The notes under the pieces are model-generated. The model was not told where the DNA came from and ran no database searches. It worked only from the letters and a program-made list of their open reading frames with translations. Positions 50,326-62,710 of a stretch of DNA of 64,000 nucleotides are shown piece by piece. A program made the translations under genes and the position numbers. The stretch's first letter is position 1. Each line of letters begins with the position of its first letter. Source of the stretch: Archangium lipolyticum (GTDB taxonomy: Bacteria > Myxococcota > Myxococcia > Myxococcales > Myxococcaceae); contig NZ_JANKBZ010000034.1 in assembly GCF_024623785.1 (NCBI RefSeq), positions 62,001-126,000 on the forward strand. Reading direction: 5' to 3'.

Positions 50326-50352
50326 GTCACCCAGGCGTCACATCGTCGTCAT
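50326..50352 (+). promoter_or_regulatory. Pho-box-like repeat upstream of the first phoB-type gene
   Basis: GTCAC at 50326 and 50337, and GTCAT at 50348, at exact 11-base intervals. The last unit ends about 21 bases before a TAGGGC hexamer (50374-50379) that could be the -10. The repeat length and core match known PhoB boxes. Confidence 0.7.
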
Positions 50353-50411: not shown

Positions 50412-51092
50412 ATGGCGCGCATCCTGATCATCGAGGACGAGCAGGACCTGGCGGGACTGGTGGAGTACAACCTCCGGGCCGCGGGATTCGAAGCGGAGGC
50501 GGCGGGCACCGGAGCGAGCGGCCTGGCCAAGGCCCGCTCCAACGTGCCGGACCTCATCCTGTTGGACCTGATGCTGCCGGACCTGGCGGGCAGCGAGGTG
50601 CTGCGCCTGCTCAAGAGCGACTCCGAGCTGCGCAAGGTGCCGGTCATCATCGTCAGCGCCAAGGGCCAGGAGTCCGACCGCATCCAGGGACTGGAACAGG
50701 GCGCGGACGACTACGTGGTGAAGCCCTTCTCGGTCCGCGAGCTGATGCTGCGGGTCAAGGCGGTGCTGCGGCGCTCGGACATCGAGGAGGGGCCGGTGGC
50801 CCAGCTGGCCGCCGGGGACATCCAGCTCGACACCTCGCGCCACCAGGTGCGCGTGAAGGGCCAGGAGGTGGTCCTCACCGCGCTGGAGTTCCGCCTGCTG
50901 CGCACCCTCCTGGAGCGGGGCGATCGCGTGCAGACGCGCGAGGTGCTCCTCTCCGACGTCTGGGGCATCCAGGCGGAGATCCACACCCGCACGGTGGACA
51001 CGCACATCAAACGCCTGCGCGAGAAGCTCGGTCCCGCGGGCGACATCATCGAGACGGTCCGTGGCGTGGGCTACAAGCTCAGCCCTCCGTGA
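50412..51092 (+). CDS. phoB: PhoB-type response regulator (first copy)
   Basis: A 226-residue OmpR/PhoB-type regulator. Receiver: ILIIEDEQD, D52 in LLDLMLPDLAG, Lys in YVVKPFS. Winged-helix output: LTALEFRLLRTLL, HTRTVDTHIKRLREKLG, TVRGVGYKL. Adjacent phoR, the Pho boxes around it and the pst genes downstream identify it as the phosphate-starvation regulator. It has its own Pho box, so it is likely self-activating. Confidence 0.92.
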   Translation: MARILIIEDEQDLAGLVEYNLRAAGFEAEAAGTGASGLAKARSNVPDLILLDLMLPDLAGSEVLRLLKSDSELRKVPVIIVSAKGQESDRIQGLEQGADDYVVKPFSVRELMLRVKAVLRRSDIEEGPVAQLAAGDIQLDTSRHQVRVKGQEVVLTALEFRLLRTLLERGDRVQTREVLLSDVWGIQAEIHTRTVDTHIKRLREKLGPAGDIIETVRGVGYKLSPP

Positions 51093-51104: not shown

Positions 51105-52469
51105 ATGCCCCCGCGCCTCTTCCTGATTCCCCTCCTCCTGCCCGCCCTCGCGGCGCTCGTCCTCTTCCTGCTGCTGGGCTGGAGGATGGACGCCGTCTAC
51201 GTGGCGCTCGCCACCCTCTCCGCCTCCGCGCTGACGCTGGTGGCCAGCCGGGACGCGCTCAAACGGCAGATCCTCACACTGGCCCGGCAGGTCCGCACCC
51301 GCGCCGAGGGCACCCCCGCTCCAGGTAGCGGCGAGGACGAGCGCGACCGGCTCGAGGAGGTGGCCAACCTCAAGGGCGCCATCGACACGCTCCACCACCA
51401 GCTCTCCGCGCGCAACGCCGGACTCGACCAGGAGGCGCGCATCCTCACCGCCGTGCTGGACGGCATGGCCGAGGGCCTCTGGGTGACGGACGCCGAGGGC
51501 ACCGTGGTGCGCCACAACGACGCGCTGCGCGGCATGCTCCAGACGGCCGGGCACATCGTCGGCCAGCGTCCCCTCGCGCTGCTGCGCAACGAGGCCCTCA
51601 ACGAGGCCGTCACCCGCGCCTGCCGGGAGGGCGCCGCCACCCGGCTCGAGCTGACGCTGGAGGGCCTGTTCCCCCGCACGCTCGCCATCCGGGTGACTGC
51701 CCTGGGGAGGGACCTGCCCGGCAGCGCCGCCGTCTTCCACGACGTCACCGAGCTGCGCCACCTGGAGAAGGTCCGCAAGGACTTCGTCGCCAACGTCTCC
51801 CACGAGCTGCGCACCCCCATCACCGCCATCCGCGGCTACGCCGAGACGCTCCAGGGCGGCGCCCTGAAGGATCCCAACGTGGCGCCCAAGATGGTGGACA
51901 TCATCCACCGCCAGTCCGAGCGCCTCTCGGAGCTCGTCGAGGACCTGCTGGAGCTGTCCCGGCTGGAGTCCCGCGAGGTGAAGCTGAAGGTGACGGACGT
52001 GCCCCTGGCGACGGCCGCCTCCCGGGCGGCCGAGGTGGTCCGGCCCAAGGCGCAGGGCAAGAACATTACGCTCGAGCTGAACGTCCCCCAGGGGCTGGTG
52101 GGCCGGGGAGACGAGCGGGGACTGGAGCAGGTGCTGCTCAACCTGCTGGACAACGCGGTGAAGTACACGCCCGAGGGGGGCCGGGTGATGGTGCTGGCCG
52201 GCCAGGAGGACGGGCGGTGCGTGGTGCACATCCGGGACACCGGGGTGGGCATCGAGCCCAAGCACCTGGCCCGTATCTTCGAGCGCTTCTACCGGGTGGA
52301 CAAGGGACGCAGCCGGGACATGGGGGGGACGGGCCTGGGCCTGTCCATCGTCAAGCACCTGATGAGCGCCATGGGGGGCGAGGTGAAGGTCGAGAGCCAG
52401 CCGAACGAGGGCTCTACCTTCACGATTTTCCTTCCAGTGTCTGTGCCCACGGCGACGGCGGCGGGTTAG
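51105..52469 (+). CDS. phoR: PhoR-type sensor histidine kinase
   Basis: A 454-residue kinase. Two hydrophobic N-terminal segments (residues ~5-27 and ~30-47) with no periplasmic sensor domain, a PAS-like region (ILTAVLDGMAEGLWVTDAEG), then HisKA with the phospho-His in FVANVSHELRTPITAIRGYA, and HATPase boxes NLLDNAVKYTPEG, RDTGVGIEPKHL and GGTGLGLSIVKHL. This is the PhoR layout, which senses phosphate through PstSCAB-PhoU rather than directly. It follows phoB by 12 bases. Confidence 0.93.
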   Translation: MPPRLFLIPLLLPALAALVLFLLLGWRMDAVYVALATLSASALTLVASRDALKRQILTLARQVRTRAEGTPAPGSGEDERDRLEEVANLKGAIDTLHHQLSARNAGLDQEARILTAVLDGMAEGLWVTDAEGTVVRHNDALRGMLQTAGHIVGQRPLALLRNEALNEAVTRACREGAATRLELTLEGLFPRTLAIRVTALGRDLPGSAAVFHDVTELRHLEKVRKDFVANVSHELRTPITAIRGYAETLQGGALKDPNVAPKMVDIIHRQSERLSELVEDLLELSRLESREVKLKVTDVPLATAASRAAEVVRPKAQGKNITLELNVPQGLVGRGDERGLEQVLLNLLDNAVKYTPEGGRVMVLAGQEDGRCVVHIRDTGVGIEPKHLARIFERFYRVDKGRSRDMGGTGLGLSIVKHLMSAMGGEVKVESQPNEGSTFTIFLPVSVPTATAAG

Positions 52470-52481
52470 GATGGGGCGGCC

Positions 52482-53426
52482 ATGCGGGTCGCCATCCTCG
52501 CCGACATTCACGGGAACCTCCCCGCCTGCGAGGCCGTCCTCGAGGACATCGCCCGCGTCGCGCCCGACTACGTCGTGGCCGCCGGAGACCTCGCCCTGCG
52601 CGGCGCGCACCCGCGCGAGACGGTGGAGCTGCTCTTCGATCGCTGTGACGCGGTCCTCATGGGCAACACCGACTGCTACCTCGCCGGCCACTACCTGGGC
52701 GGCGCCTACCGCGAGCGCGACCACTGGAAGACGGAGCTGCTCCAGTGGACGAGGGATCAGCTCGGGGAGCCGTGGCTCAAGCGCCTGGGGGCCATGCCCT
52801 TCTCGGTGCGCTACTCGCCGCGCCGGGGGCAGGACCTGTTCGTCTGCCACGCCAACCCGCGCAACCTCGAGGACTCGCTGGACCCGACGCTGGACGAGAA
52901 CACCATCCGCCGCTACTTCCAGAACCTGGACGCGGCCGCGTGTGCCTTCGGCCACCTGCACTTCCCCTACCGCCGCCGCGTGGGCCGGCTCCTCATCGCG
53001 GACGTGGCCAGCGCCGGCATCCCCCGGGACGGAGATCTCCGCCCCGCCTACGGCGTCTTCACCTTCACGCCCAAGGGCTGGCGCGTGCAGATCCGCCGCG
53101 TGCGCTACCCGGTGCGCAAGGCCACCCAGGCCCTCACCGCGCGCCGCGTGCCCGGCGGCCCCCTGCTCATCCACAAGCTCGTCGAGGCGCGCTACCGCCA
53201 CCACCACGCGCTGATGGAGGCCGCGCGCCGTCACTCGGGCCTGCCTCCCCCCGGCCCGGTGCTGCGTCCGCCCCCCGGCTCCTCCCTCATCACCCACACG
53301 CCCACCATCGAGCTGCCGGTGGTGACGCCTCCGCTCCTCAAGCAGGCCGTGGGTGACGAGAGCCACCCCGCGACTACCGAGGACGGGCCCGTGCCCCTGT
53401 CCACCGTGACGGACCTGGACGGCTGA
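52482..53426 (+). CDS. metallophosphoesterase (YfcE/MJ0936-like)
   Basis: A 314-residue calcineurin-like phosphoesterase. Metal-binding motifs: ADIHGNLPA (D8, H10), AAGDLALRG, MGNTDCYL, VCHANP and AFGHLHFP. The ~75-residue C-terminal tail is Pro-rich and low complexity. Family members hydrolyse phosphodiesters or nucleotides; the substrate is unknown. It follows phoR by 12 bases and so belongs to the pho transcript, suggesting a role in phosphate scavenging. Confidence 0.9.
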   Translation: MRVAILADIHGNLPACEAVLEDIARVAPDYVVAAGDLALRGAHPRETVELLFDRCDAVLMGNTDCYLAGHYLGGAYRERDHWKTELLQWTRDQLGEPWLKRLGAMPFSVRYSPRRGQDLFVCHANPRNLEDSLDPTLDENTIRRYFQNLDAAACAFGHLHFPYRRRVGRLLIADVASAGIPRDGDLRPAYGVFTFTPKGWRVQIRRVRYPVRKATQALTARRVPGGPLLIHKLVEARYRHHHALMEAARRHSGLPPPGPVLRPPPGSSLITHTPTIELPVVTPPLLKQAVGDESHPATTEDGPVPLSTVTDLDG

Positions 53427-54006: not shown

Positions 54007-54011
54007 GTGAT

Positions 54012-54038
54012 GTCACGCACTTGTCGCAAGCACGTCAC
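54012..54038 (+). promoter_or_regulatory. Pho-box-like repeat upstream of the second phoB-type gene
   Basis: GTCAC at 54012, GTCGC at 54023 and GTCAC at 54034, at exact 11-base steps. It is 38 bases before the second phoB-type start codon. Confidence 0.75.
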
Positions 54039-54075
54039 CGGAACGCAAACGGCGGTGTCCAGAGTGCGCGCCGCC

Positions 54076-54765
54076 ATGCCCCACGTCCTCATCGTCGACG
54101 ACGAGCGCGATCTCGCCGAGCTCATCGATTTCAATCTCCGAGCAGCTGGCTTCTCCACCCGCGTCGCGCCCACGGGCGAGGCCGCGCTCACCGCCGCGCG
54201 CGAGCAGCGGATGGATCTGGTCCTCCTGGATCTGATGTTGCCGGACATCTCCGGCGTGGAGGTCTGCCGCCAGCTGCGTGCCGCCGCCAACACCCGTGAC
54301 GTCCTCATCGTCATGCTCACCGCCAAGGGAGAGGAGGCCGACCGCGTGCGCGGCTTCGAGGTAGGTGCCGACGACTACGTCACCAAGCCCTTCAGCGTCC
54401 GTGAGCTCGTCCTGCGCCTCAAGGCCATCCTCCGCCGCAGCAGCCCCGCGCGCGACGAGTCCGCGCCCCTCAAGCTGGGCCCTCTCGCGCTCGACATCTC
54501 CGCCCACCGCTTCTACGTGGAGGGCAAGGAGGTCATCCTCACCGCGCTGGAGTTCCGCCTGCTGGAGCACCTCATGGCCCGCGTGGGCCGGGTGCAGTCC
54601 CGCGAGCAGCTCCTCGAGGAGGTCTGGGGCCTGTCCAGCTCCCTGGAGACACGCACCATCGACACCCACGTCATGCGCCTGCGCGACAAGCTCGGCTCCG
54701 CGCGTGCCTACCTCGAGACAGTTCGCGGCGTGGGCTATCGCATCGTCGACCCGAATGTCGTCTGA
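54076..54765 (+). CDS. PhoB-type response regulator (second copy)
   Basis: A 229-residue OmpR/PhoB-type regulator similar to the first copy: VLIVDDERD, D52 in LLDLMLPDISG, Lys in YVTKPFSV, LTALEFRLLEHLM, ETRTIDTHVMRLRDKLG, TVRGVGYRI. The start ATG 54076 (MPHVLIVDDE) is chosen as the normal family N-terminus. No kinase is adjacent to it except phoR, 1.6 kb upstream, so PhoR may feed both. A Pho box precedes it and another follows it. Confidence 0.92.
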   Translation: MPHVLIVDDERDLAELIDFNLRAAGFSTRVAPTGEAALTAAREQRMDLVLLDLMLPDISGVEVCRQLRAAANTRDVLIVMLTAKGEEADRVRGFEVGADDYVTKPFSVRELVLRLKAILRRSSPARDESAPLKLGPLALDISAHRFYVEGKEVILTALEFRLLEHLMARVGRVQSREQLLEEVWGLSSSLETRTIDTHVMRLRDKLGSARAYLETVRGVGYRIVDPNVV

Positions 54766-56127: not shown

Positions 56128-56949
56128 ATGAAGAACTTCATCGCCTCGATCGCCGCGGTGCTGCTGCTCGCCCTCCCGGGCGCGGCTCGCGCGGGTACCG
56201 TCACCGTCAAGGGCTCCGACACCATGGTCATCCTCGGCCAGCGCTGGGCCGAGGAGTTCATGAAGAAGAACCCCAACACCAAGCTGCAGGTGACGGGTGG
56301 CGGCTCGGGCGTCGGCCTGTCGGCGCTCATCAACGGCACCACGGACATCGCCATGTCCAGCCGCCCCATGAAGGAGGCGGAGGGCGAGAAGCTGCGCACC
56401 CGCTTCAACACCACCGGCACGGAGATCTCCGTGGCCAAGGACGGTGTGACCTTCTACGTCAACGAGGGCAACAAGGTGGACGCCCTCACCCAGGAGCAGC
56501 TCAAGGGCATCTACCTGGGCGACATCACCAACTGGAAGGAAGTGGGCGGCCCGGACGCGCCCATCATCGTCTACTCGCGTGAGAACTCCTCGGGCACCTA
56601 CGTGTTCGTCAAGGACAACCTCCTCAACGGCGACGACTACACCTCCAGCGCCCAGACGCTGCCCGGCACGGCCGCGGTGGTGAACGCGGTGTCCAAGGAG
56701 AAGAACGGCATCGGCTACGGCGGCTCCGCCTACGCCAAGGGCATCAAGGAGCTGAAGATCAAGAAGGGCAACGAGGCGATCGCTCCCTCCGCGGAGAACA
56801 TCAAGACCGGCAAGTACCCGCTCTCGCGCGACCTCTACTTCTACCTGCGCAACAAGCCGGCCGCGGATGCCAAGGCCTTCATCGACTTCGTCCTGTCCCC
56901 CGAGGGCCAGGCGCTCGTCACCAAGGTTGGCTACTTCCCGGTGAAGTAG
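56128..56949 (+). CDS. pstS: phosphate ABC transporter substrate-binding protein PstS
   Basis: A 273-residue periplasmic phosphate-binding protein. Signal peptide MKNFIASIAAVLLLALPG ends near ARAGTV; mature part begins VTVKGSDTMVILGQRWAEEF. Ligand residues are in TVKGSDT, GGGSGVG, SSRPMK and SRENSSGTYVF. Length and fold match PstS-type binding proteins. It is 43 bases after the porin. Confidence 0.96.
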   Translation: MKNFIASIAAVLLLALPGAARAGTVTVKGSDTMVILGQRWAEEFMKKNPNTKLQVTGGGSGVGLSALINGTTDIAMSSRPMKEAEGEKLRTRFNTTGTEISVAKDGVTFYVNEGNKVDALTQEQLKGIYLGDITNWKEVGGPDAPIIVYSRENSSGTYVFVKDNLLNGDDYTSSAQTLPGTAAVVNAVSKEKNGIGYGGSAYAKGIKELKIKKGNEAIAPSAENIKTGKYPLSRDLYFYLRNKPAADAKAFIDFVLSPEGQALVTKVGYFPVK

Positions 56950-56967
56950 GACCCCAGGGCAGCAGGC

Positions 56968-56983
56968 GTCACGAGATTGTCAC
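56968..56983 (+). promoter_or_regulatory. short Pho-box-like repeat between pstS and pstC
   Basis: Two GTCAC units at 56968 and 56979, 11 bases apart. They lie 19 bases before the pstC GTG, too close for an ordinary -10 and leader, so a weak or internal binding site is likelier than a full promoter. Confidence 0.5.
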
Positions 56984-57001
56984 ACGAACCCCGAGGACAA
57001 C

Positions 57002-58018
57002 GTGGATAGACAAGCGGCCATGCAGAGTGAGGGGCTCGTGGAAACGGCAACCGTGGCGCCGCGACTCTCCTCCGTCGCCCGGCGGAGGCAGATCCGGGAG
57101 AAGGTCATCGCCGGCTTCATCACGGCGATGGCCTTCACGGGAATCGCGGCGCTGGTGCTGATCCTGGTCTTCATCGCGAAGGAGGCGCTGGCGATCTTCC
57201 TGGACGCCCACGCCCGCGAGGAGGCCAGCCTGTCGAAGATGTTCCTGCCGCAGGTGGTGCGCGCCGGCAAGCCGGCCGCCTTCGTGTGGCAGCCGGTGTC
57301 CTCGGTGCCGAAGGTGAGCATGATTCCGCTCTTCATCGGCACGCTGAAGACGACGCTGGTGTCGATGGTGGTGGCGGTGCCGGTGGGCGTGGCGGGCGCG
57401 CTGTTCGCCGCCGAGTTCGCCCCCCGGCGGATGAGGGAGATCCTCAAGCCCACCATCGAGTTGCTGGCGGGCATTCCCTCGGTGGTGCTGGGCTTCTTCG
57501 CCCTGATGGTGCTGGCCTCCTTCCTCCAGGACACCTTCGGGCTCACGTCCCGGCTCAACGCGGTCGTCGCGGGGCTGGGCCTGTCGCTGGCGATCGTCCC
57601 CGTCATCTTCACCGTGGCCGAGGACGCGCTCACCGCGGTGCCGCGCAGCTACCGCGAGGCGTCGCTCGCACTGGGCGCCACGCCCTGGGAGACGGCCTGG
57701 AAGGTGGTGCTGCCGGCGGCGGCCCCGGGCATCCTCGCCGCGTGCGTGCTGGGCTTCGGCCGCGCCATCGGTGAGACGATGATCGTCCTGATGGCCTCGG
57801 GCAACGCGGCCATCGTGTCGTGGAACTTCGCGGACTCGGTGCGCTCCATGTCCGCCACCATCGCCGCGGAGATGGGCGAGGTGGTGGTGGGCAGCCCGCA
57901 CTACTCGCTCCTGTTCTTCATCGGAGTCGAGCTCTTCCTCTTCACCTTCGTCCTCAACATGCTGGCGAACGTCTGGACGCGCCGGGTCATCAAGCGGCTG
58001 TCGGGAGCGGGAGCATGA
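57002..58018 (+). CDS. pstC: phosphate ABC transporter permease PstC
   Basis: A 338-residue permease with six or so membrane segments, including ITAMAFTGIAALVLILVFIA, TTLVSMVVAVPVGVAGALFA, and the EAA-type loop YREASLALGATPWETAWKVV. The N-terminal ~40 residues are cytoplasmic. GTG 57002 has GAGG six bases upstream; ATG 57020 is possible. Its stop overlaps the pstA start (ATGA). Confidence 0.95.
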   Translation: MDRQAAMQSEGLVETATVAPRLSSVARRRQIREKVIAGFITAMAFTGIAALVLILVFIAKEALAIFLDAHAREEASLSKMFLPQVVRAGKPAAFVWQPVSSVPKVSMIPLFIGTLKTTLVSMVVAVPVGVAGALFAAEFAPRRMREILKPTIELLAGIPSVVLGFFALMVLASFLQDTFGLTSRLNAVVAGLGLSLAIVPVIFTVAEDALTAVPRSYREASLALGATPWETAWKVVLPAAAPGILAACVLGFGRAIGETMIVLMASGNAAIVSWNFADSVRSMSATIAAEMGEVVVGSPHYSLLFFIGVELFLFTFVLNMLANVWTRRVIKRLSGAGA

Positions 58019-58926
58019 AGAACACCATGCGCCGGATCGTGGGCGGAGCACTCACGTCTCTCACCGGCTTCGCCGCGCTGCTCATCGTGGCCATCCTGGC
58101 CATCATCCTTTTCGACGCGATGCGAGGCGGATTCGGGAACATCACCTGGCAGTTCCTCAGCGAGCCGCCCTCCGATGGAATGATGGGTGGCGGTATCTTC
58201 CCCGCCCTCTACGGGACGGCGGCGCTCACCCTGCTGATGACGCTGGCGGTGATGCCGGTGGGCGTGCTCACGGCGGTGTACCTGCACGAGTACGCGCCCC
58301 CGAGCTCACTCCTGGCGCGCGCGGTGCGGCTGGCGGTGGTCAATCTGGCGGGCGTGCCGTCGATCGTCTTCGGGCTGTTCGGCCTGGGCTTCTTCATCCA
58401 CTTCGTGGGCGGGAGCATGGACCGGGCGCTGGGCTACCAGGAGCTGCACTGGGGCCAGCCGGGCATCCTCTGGGCCTCGCTCACCCTGGCGGTGCTGACG
58501 CTGCCGGTGGTCATCGTCTCCACCGAGGAGGCGCTGCGCGCGGTGCCGATGGACCACCGCACGGCGAGCCTGGCGCTGGGGGCTACCCGCTCCCAGACGC
58601 TGGCGCGGGTGGTGCTGCCGGGCGCGCTGCCGGGCATCCTCACCGGTGCCGTGCTGGCGGTGTCCCGCGGCGCGGGCGAGGTGGCGCCCATCCTCTTCAC
58701 CGGTGCCGCCTACTTCCTGCCCGACCTGCCCAGCAAGCTCAACGCCCAGTTCATGCACCTGGGCTATCACACCTACGTGCTGGCCACGCAGTCACCGGAT
58801 GTGGAGGCCACGCGCCCGCTGTTGTACGCCACGGTGCTGGTGCTGCTCGCGCTCACCTTCGCCCTCAACCTCGTCGCGGTGCTCATCCGCGCCCGCACCC
58901 GCCGGCGCGCCTCCGCGGCCCACTGA
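58015..58926 (+). CDS. pstA: phosphate ABC transporter permease PstA
   Basis: A 303-residue permease, partner of PstC. Membrane helices include FAALLIVAILAIILFDAM and LLMTLAVMPVGVLTAVYL; the EAA loop is HRTASLALGATRSQTLARVV. The typical motif GGGIFPALYGTAALTLL is present. ATG 58015 overlaps the pstC stop. Confidence 0.95.
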   Translation: MKNTMRRIVGGALTSLTGFAALLIVAILAIILFDAMRGGFGNITWQFLSEPPSDGMMGGGIFPALYGTAALTLLMTLAVMPVGVLTAVYLHEYAPPSSLLARAVRLAVVNLAGVPSIVFGLFGLGFFIHFVGGSMDRALGYQELHWGQPGILWASLTLAVLTLPVVIVSTEEALRAVPMDHRTASLALGATRSQTLARVVLPGALPGILTGAVLAVSRGAGEVAPILFTGAAYFLPDLPSKLNAQFMHLGYHTYVLATQSPDVEATRPLLYATVLVLLALTFALNLVAVLIRARTRRRASAAH

Positions 58927-58935
58927 CACCGAGCC

Positions 58936-59715
58936 ATGTCCCTTTCTTCCGCTGCTCCCGCGCGCATCAAGATGGAGGCGCGCGAGCTTACCCTCCGCTA
59001 CGGCACCAAGGTGGCGGTGAAGTCGGTGAGCATTCCCCTGCTCGAGCACCAGGTAACGGCGCTCATCGGCCCCTCCGGCTGCGGCAAGTCCACCTTCCTG
59101 CGCTCGCTCAACCGGATGAACGATCTCATCCCGGGTGCCAGCCACGAGGGCACCGTGCTGCTGGACGGCACGAGCATCCATGACCGCAACGTGGACGTGG
59201 TGGATCTGCGCCGCCGCGTGGGCATGGTCTTCCAGAAGTCCAACCCCTTCCCGAAGACGATCTTCGAGAACGTGGCCTACGGCCTGCGCGTGGGAGGGAT
59301 GAAGGACAAGGCGGACATCGCCGCGCGCGTGGAGAAGTCGCTCAAGGGGGCGGCGCTCTGGGAAGAGGTGAAGGACCGGCTCAACGACAGCGCCATGAGC
59401 CTGTCCGGCGGCCAGCAGCAGCGCCTGTGCATCGCGCGCGCCCTGGCCATCGAGCCCGAGGTGCTGCTGATGGACGAGCCCGCCAGCGCGTTGGATCCCA
59501 TCGCCACGGCGAAGATCGAGGAGCTCATCCACGAGCTGAAGGAGCGCTACACCATCGCCATCGTCACGCACAGCATGCAGCAGGCGGCGCGGGTGAGCGA
59601 CCGCACGGCCTTCTTCTACATGGGCGAGCTGGTGGAGTGCGGCCCCACCGAGCAGATCTTCACCAACCCTCGTGAGAAGCGCACCGAGGACTACGTCACC
59701 GGGAAGTTCGGGTAG
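58936..59715 (+). CDS. pstB: phosphate ABC transporter ATP-binding protein PstB
   Basis: A 259-residue ABC ATPase that powers phosphate import. Walker [20 protein letters not shown], signature [17 protein letters not shown], Walker [15 protein letters not shown] and switch His in [13 protein letters not shown] are all standard for PstB. It is 9 bases after pstA. Confidence 0.97.
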
Positions 59716-59732
59716 GAGCGAGGGAAGCGGAC

Positions 59733-60425
59733 ATGCCATCGACACATACGGACAAGGCATTCGAGGCGGATCTGAGGGATCTGCGCGAGAAGCTGCTGGG
59801 CATGGGCGCCAAGGTGGAAGCGCACATCGCGGACAGCGTGCGCGCGCTCACCGAGCGGGATTCCGCGCTCGCCGAGAAGGTCATCCAGGCGGACAAGGAG
59901 GTCAACCGCCTGGAGGTGGAGGTCGACGAGACGTGCCGCCGCATCCTCGCGCTGCGCCAGCCAGCCGCGAGCGATCTGCGCCTCATCACCACCGCGCTGA
60001 AGATCGTCACCGACCTGGAGCGCATCGGCGACCTGGCGGTGAACATCGCCGAGCGGGCCAAGGATCTGAACGAGGCGCCGCCGCTCAAGGCCTACGTGGA
60101 CACGCCGCGGCTGGCCGAGCTGGCCCAGCAGCAGGTGAAGAAGGCGCTGGATGCCTTCGTGTCCTCGGATCCGGCCAAGGCGGAAGAGGTGCGCAAGGAG
60201 GACGACCACCTGGACGTCCTCTACCTGAAGATCTTCAACGAGCTGCTCGGCTACATGATGGAGGACTCGAGGAACATCCGCCGCGCCACGGCGCTGATGT
60301 TCATCGCCAAGCACCTCGAGCGCATTGGAGACCACGCCACCAACGTGGCGGAGATGGTCATCTACATGGTGCGCGGCACGGACATCCGCCATCCGCGCAG
60401 CCGGAACCTGACGACGGCCTCCTGA
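59733..60425 (+). CDS. phoU: phosphate signalling protein PhoU
   Basis: A 230-residue all-helical PhoU with two three-helix repeats, each carrying an acidic metal-binding face (EVDETCRRILALRQPAASDL and LERIGDLAVNIAERAKDL; second repeat YMMEDSRNIRRAT, LERIGDHATNVAEMVIY). It negatively controls PhoR and the Pst transporter when phosphate is abundant. Seventeen bases after pstB, so in the pst operon. Confidence 0.97.
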   Translation: MPSTHTDKAFEADLRDLREKLLGMGAKVEAHIADSVRALTERDSALAEKVIQADKEVNRLEVEVDETCRRILALRQPAASDLRLITTALKIVTDLERIGDLAVNIAERAKDLNEAPPLKAYVDTPRLAELAQQQVKKALDAFVSSDPAKAEEVRKEDDHLDVLYLKIFNELLGYMMEDSRNIRRATALMFIAKHLERIGDHATNVAEMVIYMVRGTDIRHPRSRNLTTAS

Positions 60426-60437
60426 GCGGGCAAGAGG

Positions 60438-60464
60438 TTCACGGTCCCGTCACCAAGAGTTCTC
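60438..60464 (+). promoter_or_regulatory. Pho-box-like repeat upstream of the glycosyltransferase
   Basis: TTCAC at 60438, GTCAC at 60449 and TTCTC at 60460, at 11-base intervals. The start codon of the glycosyltransferase is ~100 bases downstream; a TAGGAC hexamer at 60520-60525 may be the -10. Confidence 0.65.
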
Positions 60465-60564
60465 CCGGGTGACGCCGGACCGTCGCGGTGGAGTCGCGGG
60501 GCTTTCCTAACGTCCCGGGTAGGACGCGCGATGAACGCGCCCCTGCTCAGGAGAAAGCCCCCCC

Positions 60565-61788
60565 ATGCTCCACGCGATCAGCCTGGCCCTGCTCGCCGCC
60601 GCCGTCGTCGGAATCGTCGCCCTGGGAGCGCAGCTCTTCTGTGTGCTGCGCTACCGGCGGAGCCGCCCCCGAGTGGGCTCTCCGGTGTCCGGTGGCGCGC
60701 CGAAGGGCATCTCCATCCTCAAGCCCCTGTGTGGTGTGGATGATGACCTTGAGGCCAACCTCGCCTGCTTCGCCACGCTCGACTATCCGGCCTATGAGGT
60801 CATCCTCGGGGTGAAGGACACGCGGGATCCCGCCTACGCGGTGGCGCGAGCGGCGGTGGCGCGCTGGCCGCACATCATGAAGCTGGAGCTGCAGCACGGT
60901 GAGCCCGGCCTCAACCCCAAGGTGAACCAGCTCATCACCCTGGCGGGCGTGGCCCGTTACGACATCTTCGTCATCAGCGACTCCAACACGCGCGTGGAGC
61001 CGGACTACCTGGAGGAGATCTCCCGCACCTTCGAGGACCCGGAGGTGGGCTGCATCTCGCACCCGGTGAGCGGCGTGGGCGAGCGGACGCTGGGCTCGCT
61101 GATGGACAACCTGTACCAGAGCACCACGACGGGCGCGGGGCAGATCGCCGCCAAGCAGGCCGTCGATCAGGACATCGTGGTGGGCAAGTCCATGGCGCTG
61201 CGCCGCGAGGACGTGGAGTCCCTGGGGGGCTTCTACACGGTGCGCAACGTGCTGGCGGAGGACTTCGTCATCGGCCGGTGGGTGACGCGGCGGCTGGGCA
61301 AGCGTGCCGTGGTGGCGCGCTCGCCCGTCTACAACGTGTCGCTCGAGAAGAGCGTGACGGCCTTCCTCAAGCGCTACGTGCGCTGGAGCATCATCCACCA
61401 CACCTGCATCCCCACGCCGGTGTACCTGGCCCAGTCGCTGCTCAACCCCCTGCCCTGGGCGCTGCTCGGCGCGCTGCTGGAGCCGTCGGCGCGGGCCCTG
61501 GGCGTGGTGGGCACGGTGGTGCTGGCGAAGCTGGCGCACGACGTGACGATCTTCCACCTGTCGCGGCCCGGGCAGACCACCTCCTGGCGGGTGGTGCCTG
61601 CGGTGCTGCTCAAGGACCTGCTGCTCTTCATGGCCTGGACGAACGGGCTCTTCGCGCGCTCGGTGGACTGGCGCGGCAACAAGCTGCGAGTGCTGCCCGG
61701 CTCGAAGCTGGTGGCGCCCACGCCCGCGATGCCGGGGTCTCTCGCCACGTCCGAGCCCGAGCCCACCGAGGAGCTGCTCGCCGGCTGA
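60565..61788 (+). CDS. ceramide-glucosyltransferase-like (GT21 type) membrane glycosyltransferase
   Basis: A 407-residue processive-type glycosyltransferase with an N-terminal membrane helix (residues ~2-28) and C-terminal hydrophobic segments (~285-370). The GT21 set is present: ISILKPLCGVDDDLEANL, Asp85 in GVKDTRDPAY, VISDSNTRV (D139), AEDFVIG (D233) and RYVRW at 270-274 (the (Q/R)xxRW motif of glucosylceramide synthase). Hopanoid HpnI shares these motifs. With a Pho box upstream and pst genes before it, I infer it makes a glycolipid (glucosylceramide or glycosyl-diglyceride) in phosphate starvation. Confidence 0.88.
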   Translation: MLHAISLALLAAAVVGIVALGAQLFCVLRYRRSRPRVGSPVSGGAPKGISILKPLCGVDDDLEANLACFATLDYPAYEVILGVKDTRDPAYAVARAAVARWPHIMKLELQHGEPGLNPKVNQLITLAGVARYDIFVISDSNTRVEPDYLEEISRTFEDPEVGCISHPVSGVGERTLGSLMDNLYQSTTTGAGQIAAKQAVDQDIVVGKSMALRREDVESLGGFYTVRNVLAEDFVIGRWVTRRLGKRAVVARSPVYNVSLEKSVTAFLKRYVRWSIIHHTCIPTPVYLAQSLLNPLPWALLGALLEPSARALGVVGTVVLAKLAHDVTIFHLSRPGQTTSWRVVPAVLLKDLLLFMAWTNGLFARSVDWRGNKLRVLPGSKLVAPTPAMPGSLATSEPEPTEELLAG

Positions 61789-61792
61789 CAGG

Positions 61793-61830
61793 TTCACCGC
61801 GAAGTCACCGGGCCCACTCGAAAGGTTCAC
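61793..61830 (+). promoter_or_regulatory. Pho-box-like repeat upstream of the last phosphoesterase
   Basis: Four units at exact 11-base steps: TTCAC 61793, GTCAC 61804, CACTC (weak) 61815, TTCAC 61826. The gene starts at 61877. Confidence 0.7.
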
Positions 61831-61876
61831 CCGGGGGACATGGCCGTGTTTCAGCGGGTGGGTATCTCAGAGGCAC

Positions 61877-62710
61877 ATGCTCATCCGCAAGCTGGCTCAT
61901 CTGTCGGACCTGCATCTGGACCTCACCCGCGAGAGTGACGCGACGGCCACCGCGCTCGTGGAGACCCTCCTCGCCGAGCGCGTGGACCACGTGGTGGTGA
62001 CGGGAGACCTGACCCACCAGGGAAGCCGGAGCGAGTACCGGCGCTTCCGCGAGCTCTTCGCTCCACTGATCGACGCCGGGCGGCTCTCCTTCATCCCCGG
62101 CAACCATGACCGCACGGGCGAGGACGCCGGCGGCCAGTGGATGAACGGCCGGAAGGTGCGGGTGGAGCGGCACGAGGGTCTCTACCTGGTGTGCGTGGAC
62201 TCCACGGGCCCGCACAACCGCAACTACTTCGCCTGCCACGGCGAGCTGACCCCGGCGGTGCTGGACGAGGTGGACGCGGCCCTGTGCGCAGCGCCCACGG
62301 GCGCGCTCACCGCGGTGCTGCTGCACCACCACGTGCTACCACTGCCGGAGGAGAGCTTCCCGGAGCGCCTCGCCACGCGCATGGGCTGGCCGCACGCCTC
62401 GGAGCTGGCGCTGGGCGCCGAGCTCGTCCGCCGGGCCCAGGGCCGGTGCGATCTCATCCTCCACGGGCACCGGCACGTACCGCGCGAGTTCGATCTGGGC
62501 CACTTCCAGGGCCGCGGACTGCGCATCTACAACTCGGGCAGCTCCATCGAGCTCGGCCGCTTCCGGCTCTTCCAGCATGCGGCCGGCCGGCTGGTCGGTG
62601 AGCCCGAGTGGCAGGGGATGTCCCTGCCCCCGGCTCGCAAGCGCTCGGCCCCCAACGTCCTGCCCGCTCTTCAGTACCTGGCCAGCCAGCTGACCATGTC
62701 GCTCGTCTGA
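61877..62710 (+). CDS. calcineurin-like phosphoesterase, candidate PlcP-type phospholipase C
   Basis: A 277-residue metallophosphoesterase: AHLSDLHLDL (D11, H13), VTGDLTHQGS (D44), FIPGNHDRT (N76, H77), VLLHHHVLP and LILHGHRHVPRE. No signal peptide. Size and motif set match the calcineurin-like family that includes PlcP, the cytoplasmic phospholipase C that degrades phospholipids in phosphate-starved alphaproteobacteria. Its place after a glycolipid-type glycosyltransferase, behind a Pho box, supports that role, but alternatives (cAMP or nucleotide phosphodiesterase) cannot be excluded. AGAGG precedes ATG by a few bases. Confidence 0.85.
   Translation: MLIRKLAHLSDLHLDLTRESDATATALVETLLAERVDHVVVTGDLTHQGSRSEYRRFRELFAPLIDAGRLSFIPGNHDRTGEDAGGQWMNGRKVRVERHEGLYLVCVDSTGPHNRNYFACHGELTPAVLDEVDAALCAAPTGALTAVLLHHHVLPLPEESFPERLATRMGWPHASELALGAELVRRAQGRCDLILHGHRHVPREFDLGHFQGRGLRIYNSGSSIELGRFRLFQHAAGRLVGEPEWQGMSLPPARKRSAPNVLPALQYLASQLTMSLV

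Follow-up and report, generated by a model that had tools for sequence, protein, structure and literature searches.

A candidate phosphate-controlled membrane-lipid module of a GT21-type glycosyltransferase and a calcineurin-like phosphoesterase in Archangium and related myxobacteria

Gene order and PHO boxes at the pho locus

The window, by which we mean the whole 64-kb stretch of DNA that was analysed, is part of the 12.6-Mb genome of Archangium lipolyticum and carries the pho locus at its end. According to open reading frames and domain matches, the genes run in the order phoB-phoR-MPE1-sixA-phoB-porin-pstS-pstC-pstA-pstB-phoU and are followed by a glycosyltransferase gene (GT) and a calcineurin-like phosphoesterase gene (MPE2), behind which lie a response regulator gene and then a CorC-like gene. 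An initial annotation of this DNA had placed the GT and the phosphoesterase directly behind pst-phoU, and both open reading frames are found there. Judged by the GT, the closest named relatives are Archangium lansinium and A. violaceum (76% identity). In relatives, MPE1 is kept alongside phoBR. The features of the locus are as follows.

50326..50341, plus strand: PHO-box-like pair GTCAC-N6-GTCAC, which precedes the first phoB-like gene by about 70 bp
50412..51092, plus strand: phoB-like response regulator, first copy (open reading frame; start taken as ATG 50412)
51105-52469: phoR, after the first phoB, with PhoR domains
52482-53426: MPE1, a small YfcE-like phosphoesterase, located after phoR and before the second phoB
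54007..54765, plus strand: second PhoB-like response regulator (domain matches to receiver and Trans_reg_C)
56128..60425, plus strand: pstS-pstC-pstA-pstB-phoU, phosphate uptake and signalling (PhoU domain; order conserved in relatives)
56968..56983, plus strand: PHO-box-like pair GTCACGAGATTGTCAC, between pstS and pstC
60438..60470, plus strand: PHO box of the GT, TTCACGGTCCC-GTCACCAAGAG-TTCTCCCGGGT, in 11-base phase
60565..61788, plus strand: GT21-type glycosyltransferase, 407 aa (ATG 60565, stop 61788)
61793..61836, plus strand: PHO box of MPE2, TTCACCGCGAA-GTCACCGGGCC-CACTCGAAAGG-TTCACCCGGGG, 11-base-phased units
61877..62710, plus strand: MPE2, calcineurin-like phosphoesterase, 277 aa (ATG 61877, stop 62710)

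PHO boxes are 11-nt direct repeats, two or more units of which lie upstream of PhoB-activated genes, and their core in Streptomyces is GTTCACC (PMC4415409). The upstream regions of both GT and MPE2 hold two or more such 11-nt units; in the GT box the units TTCACGGTCCC and GTCACCAAGAG are strong and the third, TTCTCCCGGGT, is weaker. The pattern KTCACN6KTCAC matches the window exactly at four positions, each time on the plus strand, compared with 0.28 expected from shuffled sequences (none of 100 shuffles reached four), and each match lies a short way upstream of a gene of the pho locus, namely phoB, pstC, GT and MPE2. The 11-base-phased GTCAC/TTCAC units that the initial annotation had described before both genes are thus present and exceed chance. 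Across the whole host genome the pattern occurs 70 times, against 20 times for the reversed pattern, and four of the 70 matches fall within the 11.5-kb pho locus. Outside the locus, one match precedes ppx/gppA and two precede a DUF47/PhoU-like gene, an independent link of the motif to phosphate.

Linkage and PHO boxes in related genomes

Among 116 genomes of the class, the GT is present in 90 and MPE2 in 68. Adjacency of phoU and GT is nearly universal in the family of the window, and a search for the pair beside pst in other Myxococcota, as the initial annotation had suggested, finds the order phoU-GT-MPE2 in most genomes of the group f1. Other genomes hold the same genes in other arrangements: MPE2-GT adjoins phoB-MPE1-phoR (G112), MPE2 alone, without the GT, adjoins phoB (G063 and G082), the order is swapped to MPE2 before GT (G003 and G021), GT and MPE2 lie on opposite strands with one gene between them (G017), or, in a cluster ordered GT-phoU-pst-phoR-phoB, MPE2 is divergent and lies at the end opposite to the GT (G102). 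GT-MPE2 adjacency is also found at loci away from pho genes (for example G019 and G029). In a phylogeny of 98 GTs, at least ten changes of pho linkage fall on well-supported branches, and the linkage shows strong clustering in comparison with shuffles. Because several different arrangements recur, the association of GT, MPE2 and pho genes is, as far as genome comparison can tell, not merely inherited gene order, and the same recurrence supports the functional pairing of glycosyltransferase and phosphoesterase that had been proposed.

The module proposed initially can do without MPE2. The Myxococcus xanthus clade keeps phoU-GT together with the PHO box and has no MPE2 relatives at E <= 1e-15; given this clade and other carriers of the GT that lack MPE2, the supply of the acceptor cannot depend on the phosphoesterase. 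A consistent third partner gene was not found among the neighbours in relatives (DUF6938, radical SAM and others), and a DUF6938 protein gene directly adjoins the GT in some order-level relatives (L063, L072). In a genome of the same genus, a second GT21 copy of about 52% identity (L086, G113:C1:1675562-1676680) lies away from any pho gene, MPE2 or PHO box. A Myxococcus-type phoU-GT locus is also carried by a record titled Comamonas sp. KCTC 72670 (L191), which is probably a mislabelled or mixed genome.

In Myxococcaceae and Archangiaceae, 29 of 34 distinct phoU-adjacent loci (those with a GT identity of 55% or more) have an exact box no farther than 250 bp upstream of the GT, where 0.01 would be expected, and the box is visible as a conserved footprint in aligned intergenic regions across genera. 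Where the GT is more distant (45-55% identity), none of the 17 phoU-linked loci has an exact box, so that the box is either a trait of Myxococcaceae and Archangiaceae or altered in sequence in other groups. GT loci that have no pho genes nearby rarely show an exact box (2/24 and 1/20), about as often as in the reverse-complement control (2/24 and 0/20), and these few cases, being weak, are not relied on. MPE2 has its own PHO box in all seven loci of the close Archangium-type group (identity of at least 78%) and in none of 47 more distant loci, which rules out the box as a general feature of MPE2; outside the close group MPE2 may share a transcript with the GT or be under some other control. 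With the excess of boxes in the window and their recurrence before the GT in relatives, the proposed Pho control of GT and MPE2 is well supported at the level of promoter sequence, and induction at low phosphate would be its expected consequence.

Two further elements that are conserved across genera lie past the PHO box and ahead of the GT start (60500-60545 in the window; loci L172-L197): a CTAACGT/CTAGCGT element and an inverted repeat that reads GGTCGCGCGATGACCGCGCG in relatives and GACGCGCGATGAACGCGCC in the window. They are possibly a promoter -10 element and a 5'-leader hairpin. The CTAACGT/CTAGCGT element lies some 40-55 bases past the box, farther than is usual for PhoB promoters.

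Family assignment of the two enzymes

The GT matches PF13506 (Glyco_transf_21) with 135.8 bits at a gathering score of 21.7, and its Pfam matches are confined to GT21/GT2 models, in line with the initial proposal that a GT21 enzyme, on these matches one like ceramide glucosyltransferase or HpnI, takes the place of the GT4 enzyme Agt. Its best NCBIfam model is HpnI, the bacteriohopanetetrol glucosaminyl transferase, which is also a GT21 enzyme (TIGR03472; 225.6 bits, below the cut-off of 310). A profile of 18 orthologues matches only ceramide glucosyltransferase (UGCG) in the PDB (E 1e-50), whose motifs agree with those of the GT. Together with the conserved acidic motifs and (R/Q)xxRW, the score above the PF13506 gathering threshold places the protein in GT21. 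D88, D139, D233 and R270xxRW274 are invariant in the 18 orthologues; of the motif residues named initially, D139, D233 and RYVRW (R270xxRW274) hold, but D85 is often serine in the myxobacterial family, in which D88 is the invariant acidic residue, and this sets the family apart from UGCG. In the structure model (pLDDT 89), one helix at the N-terminus and two or three at the C-terminus could sit in a membrane, from which a membrane-bound topology is predicted. In the fold search many GT2-fold synthases appear at similar Z (hyaluronan and cellulose synthase, Z 20-24); ceramide glucosyltransferase is missing from the list of fold matches, which says nothing against kinship.

MPE2 matches PF00149 (Metallophos) with 66.9 bits, carries the full set of metal-binding motifs (DxH, GD, GNHD, LHHH, GHRH), invariant in 23 sequences, and has no signal peptide evident from its sequence. 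By profile its nearest solved relatives are the glycerophosphodiesterase GpdQ and Rv0805, and the fold search likewise ranks both among the closest structures (Z about 23, rmsd about 2.7, 22-26% identity). MPE2 shares fold and metal motifs with these class III phosphodiesterases but forms a distinct family with conserved DSTxPHNR and HHHxLPLP stretches of its own. The CpdA equivalog model gives 33 bits, below its cut-off of 225. LpxH is the outgroup used for trees of the phospholipase C PlcP (PMC9239053); MPE2 does not match the LpxH model, and a search for a canonical PlcP elsewhere with this model (TIGR01854), which may or may not detect PlcP itself, gave no match in the host and seven relatives. 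On these comparisons, made through the LpxH model, MPE2 may or may not be the PlcP counterpart that the initial annotation took it for; its evident kinship is with GpdQ and Rv0805.

Acceptor lipid and proposed role

Lipid remodelling by PlcP and Agt under phosphate starvation (PMC4796936, PMC9239053) and phosphate-induced glycosphingolipid synthesis in Caulobacter (PMC6445935) are the precedents for such a locus. The Archangium pair resembles PlcP-Agt of Sinorhizobium, Agrobacterium, SAR11, Methylosinus and Pseudomonas in that a Pho-controlled calcineurin-like phosphoesterase gene adjoins a glycosyltransferase gene and, by analogy, in the expected replacement of phospholipid by glycolipid. It differs in its GT (GT21, whereas Agt is GT4), in its GpdQ/Rv0805-like phosphoesterase and in its location at the pst-phoU, or phoBR, locus; with a GT of another family than Agt, the module may work like PlcP-Agt but is not a member of that system. 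With Caulobacter Sgt1 and Sgt2 it would share, again by analogy, the transfer of sugar to a neutral lipid induced by phosphate starvation; Sgt1 and Sgt2 are described as GT4-family, ceramide-specific enzymes (PMC6445935), whereas the Archangium enzyme belongs to GT21, is paired with a phosphoesterase and occurs in several genomes that lack serine palmitoyltransferase.

These genomes bear on the acceptor. If the GT made glycosylceramide at low phosphate, as Sgt1 and Sgt2 do, it would do so through a GT21 enzyme related to the glucosylceramide synthase of eukaryotes, and both the closest solved relative and the known phosphate-induced ceramide glycosylation of Caulobacter (PMC6445935) speak for this. 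Ceramide is probably available in the host, which, like most Myxococcaceae, has a serine palmitoyltransferase-like gene; the host's copy scores 516 bits, under the cut-off of 640, and has a GNAT gene behind it. The gene does not lie near the GT, however (contig C3 versus C34), and serine palmitoyltransferase scores are bimodal (467-517 versus at most 331 bits), with six genomes that carry GT and MPE2 in the low, BioF/Kbl-like group (G019, G021, G065, G094, G112, G114). Some of the genomes without the gene are draft assemblies that are 85-98% complete; G019 is a single contig of 99% completeness but has a hopene cyclase. Such carriers lower the case for ceramide specificity in the family, though not in the host, and we consider glycosylceramide an unlikely product; as the sole acceptor of the family, ceramide is unlikely on the gene content of its carriers, and the myxobacterial GT, in this respect different from UGCG, probably acts not, or not only, on ceramide. 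A hopanoid product, named initially as a case against the remodelling role, is far less credible still. It would make the GT an HpnI-like enzyme for membrane order with a secondary pho linkage, and HpnI is indeed the best NCBIfam match, but with a score under the cut-off, and squalene-hopene cyclase reaches at best 34 bits in the host against a cut-off of 431, which nearly refutes this reading for the host. The cyclase is missing in several GT-carrying relatives too (none above the cut-off in G065, G094 and G112); G019 and G021 do have it. Distant GT21 paralogues in other Myxococcaceae adjoin genes for 2,3-oxidosqualene cyclase, squalene synthase and an MmpL-type transporter (L091 in G025; L092 in G069). 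They score 115-118 bits against HpnI, are candidate sterol glycosyltransferases by their neighbourhood and form a separate, distant branch, so that triterpenoid-associated and Pho-associated GT21s are separate. A hopanoid or sterol acceptor was rejected as the main reading on account of the absent cyclase and this separate branch.

Two other readings leave the lipid out for one of the enzymes. Glycosylation of a non-lipid or polyprenyl acceptor, as a phosphate-saving change of surface polysaccharide or cell wall, would fit the processive synthases among the nearest listed folds; it is improbable in view of the single PDB relative found by sequence profile, the few membrane helices of the GT and the lack of recognised polysaccharide-export or polymer genes at the locus. 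A good deal more plausible, and a serious contender even if we do not quite favour it, is that MPE2 is no lipid enzyme but scavenges phosphate from small diesters such as glycerophosphodiesters or cyclic nucleotides, as a GpdQ- or Rv0805-like enzyme that merely shares the regulon of the GT. Its nearest relatives by profile and fold point this way, as do the cases of MPE2 beside phoB that lack the GT and the M. xanthus clade, which has the GT but not MPE2, whereas the tight and repeatedly re-formed adjacency of the two genes, seen even where no pho genes are near, speaks for a joint pathway.

Diacylglycerol is the simplest acceptor common to all carriers of the GT and, on comparative grounds that assume one acceptor across the GT family and sufficiently complete assemblies, the most likely one. 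Of the two products offered by the initial annotation, glycosyl-diacylglycerol is hence the better choice, and glucosylceramide is weakened by the carriers without serine palmitoyltransferase. To our knowledge, GT21 enzymes with a known acceptor use ceramide or hopanoids and not diacylglycerol, so that this acceptor would be unusual.

On balance we lean, by a small margin, towards a PhoB-controlled exchange of phospholipid for glycolipid, probably glycosyl-diacylglycerol, that resembles PlcP-Agt but uses different enzymes, by which myxobacteria would probably save phosphorus in replacing some of their membrane phospholipids with sugar lipids. When phosphate is scarce, phosphorylated PhoB would bind the 11-base direct repeats and activate the GT and, within the Archangium group, also MPE2 directly. 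The membrane-bound GT21 would use a nucleotide sugar to glycosylate a neutral membrane lipid, most likely diacylglycerol, and so make a glycolipid free of phosphorus. Cytosolic MPE2 would help by hydrolysing phosphodiesters that come from phospholipids, and would thereby either release diacylglycerol in the manner of a phospholipase C or recycle head-group phosphate. The sequences themselves establish the order of the genes, their PHO boxes and conservation, the enzyme families and the intactness of the catalytic motifs, while induction, the sugar, the acceptor and what MPE2 cleaves are inferred. By their family assignments these enzymes appear unrelated or only distantly related to known remodelling enzymes, and the module seems to extend over Myxococcaceae, Archangiaceae and some relatives. 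The stronger version, in which Myxococcota separately assembled a remodelling pathway from a GT21 that makes glycosyl-diacylglycerol, a new acceptor for GT21, and a GpdQ-derived phospholipase C-like enzyme, together doing the job of PlcP-Agt, we put forward as a tentative and rather doubtful extension.

In agreement with the initial annotation, which knew of no earlier report, we found none on lipid remodelling of phosphate-starved myxobacteria in the open-licence literature, outside of which most subscription journals lie. If the proposed exchange takes place, phosphorus-free glycolipids are predicted in starving myxobacteria, the phosphate-saving membrane change would extend past the PlcP-Agt enzymes, and GT21, known from glucosylceramide and hopanoid synthesis, would gain a new role; two genes and a defined promoter element are now available for testing the prediction. 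KTCAC-N6-KTCAC itself is a usable PHO-box consensus for myxobacteria. PHO-box-like pairs also precede genes that by eye resemble ExbB/TolQ and TonB (L124 and L165, the latter gene without a Pfam match; host contigs C6 and C42), and these boxes could reflect phosphate-controlled outer-membrane uptake, or chance.
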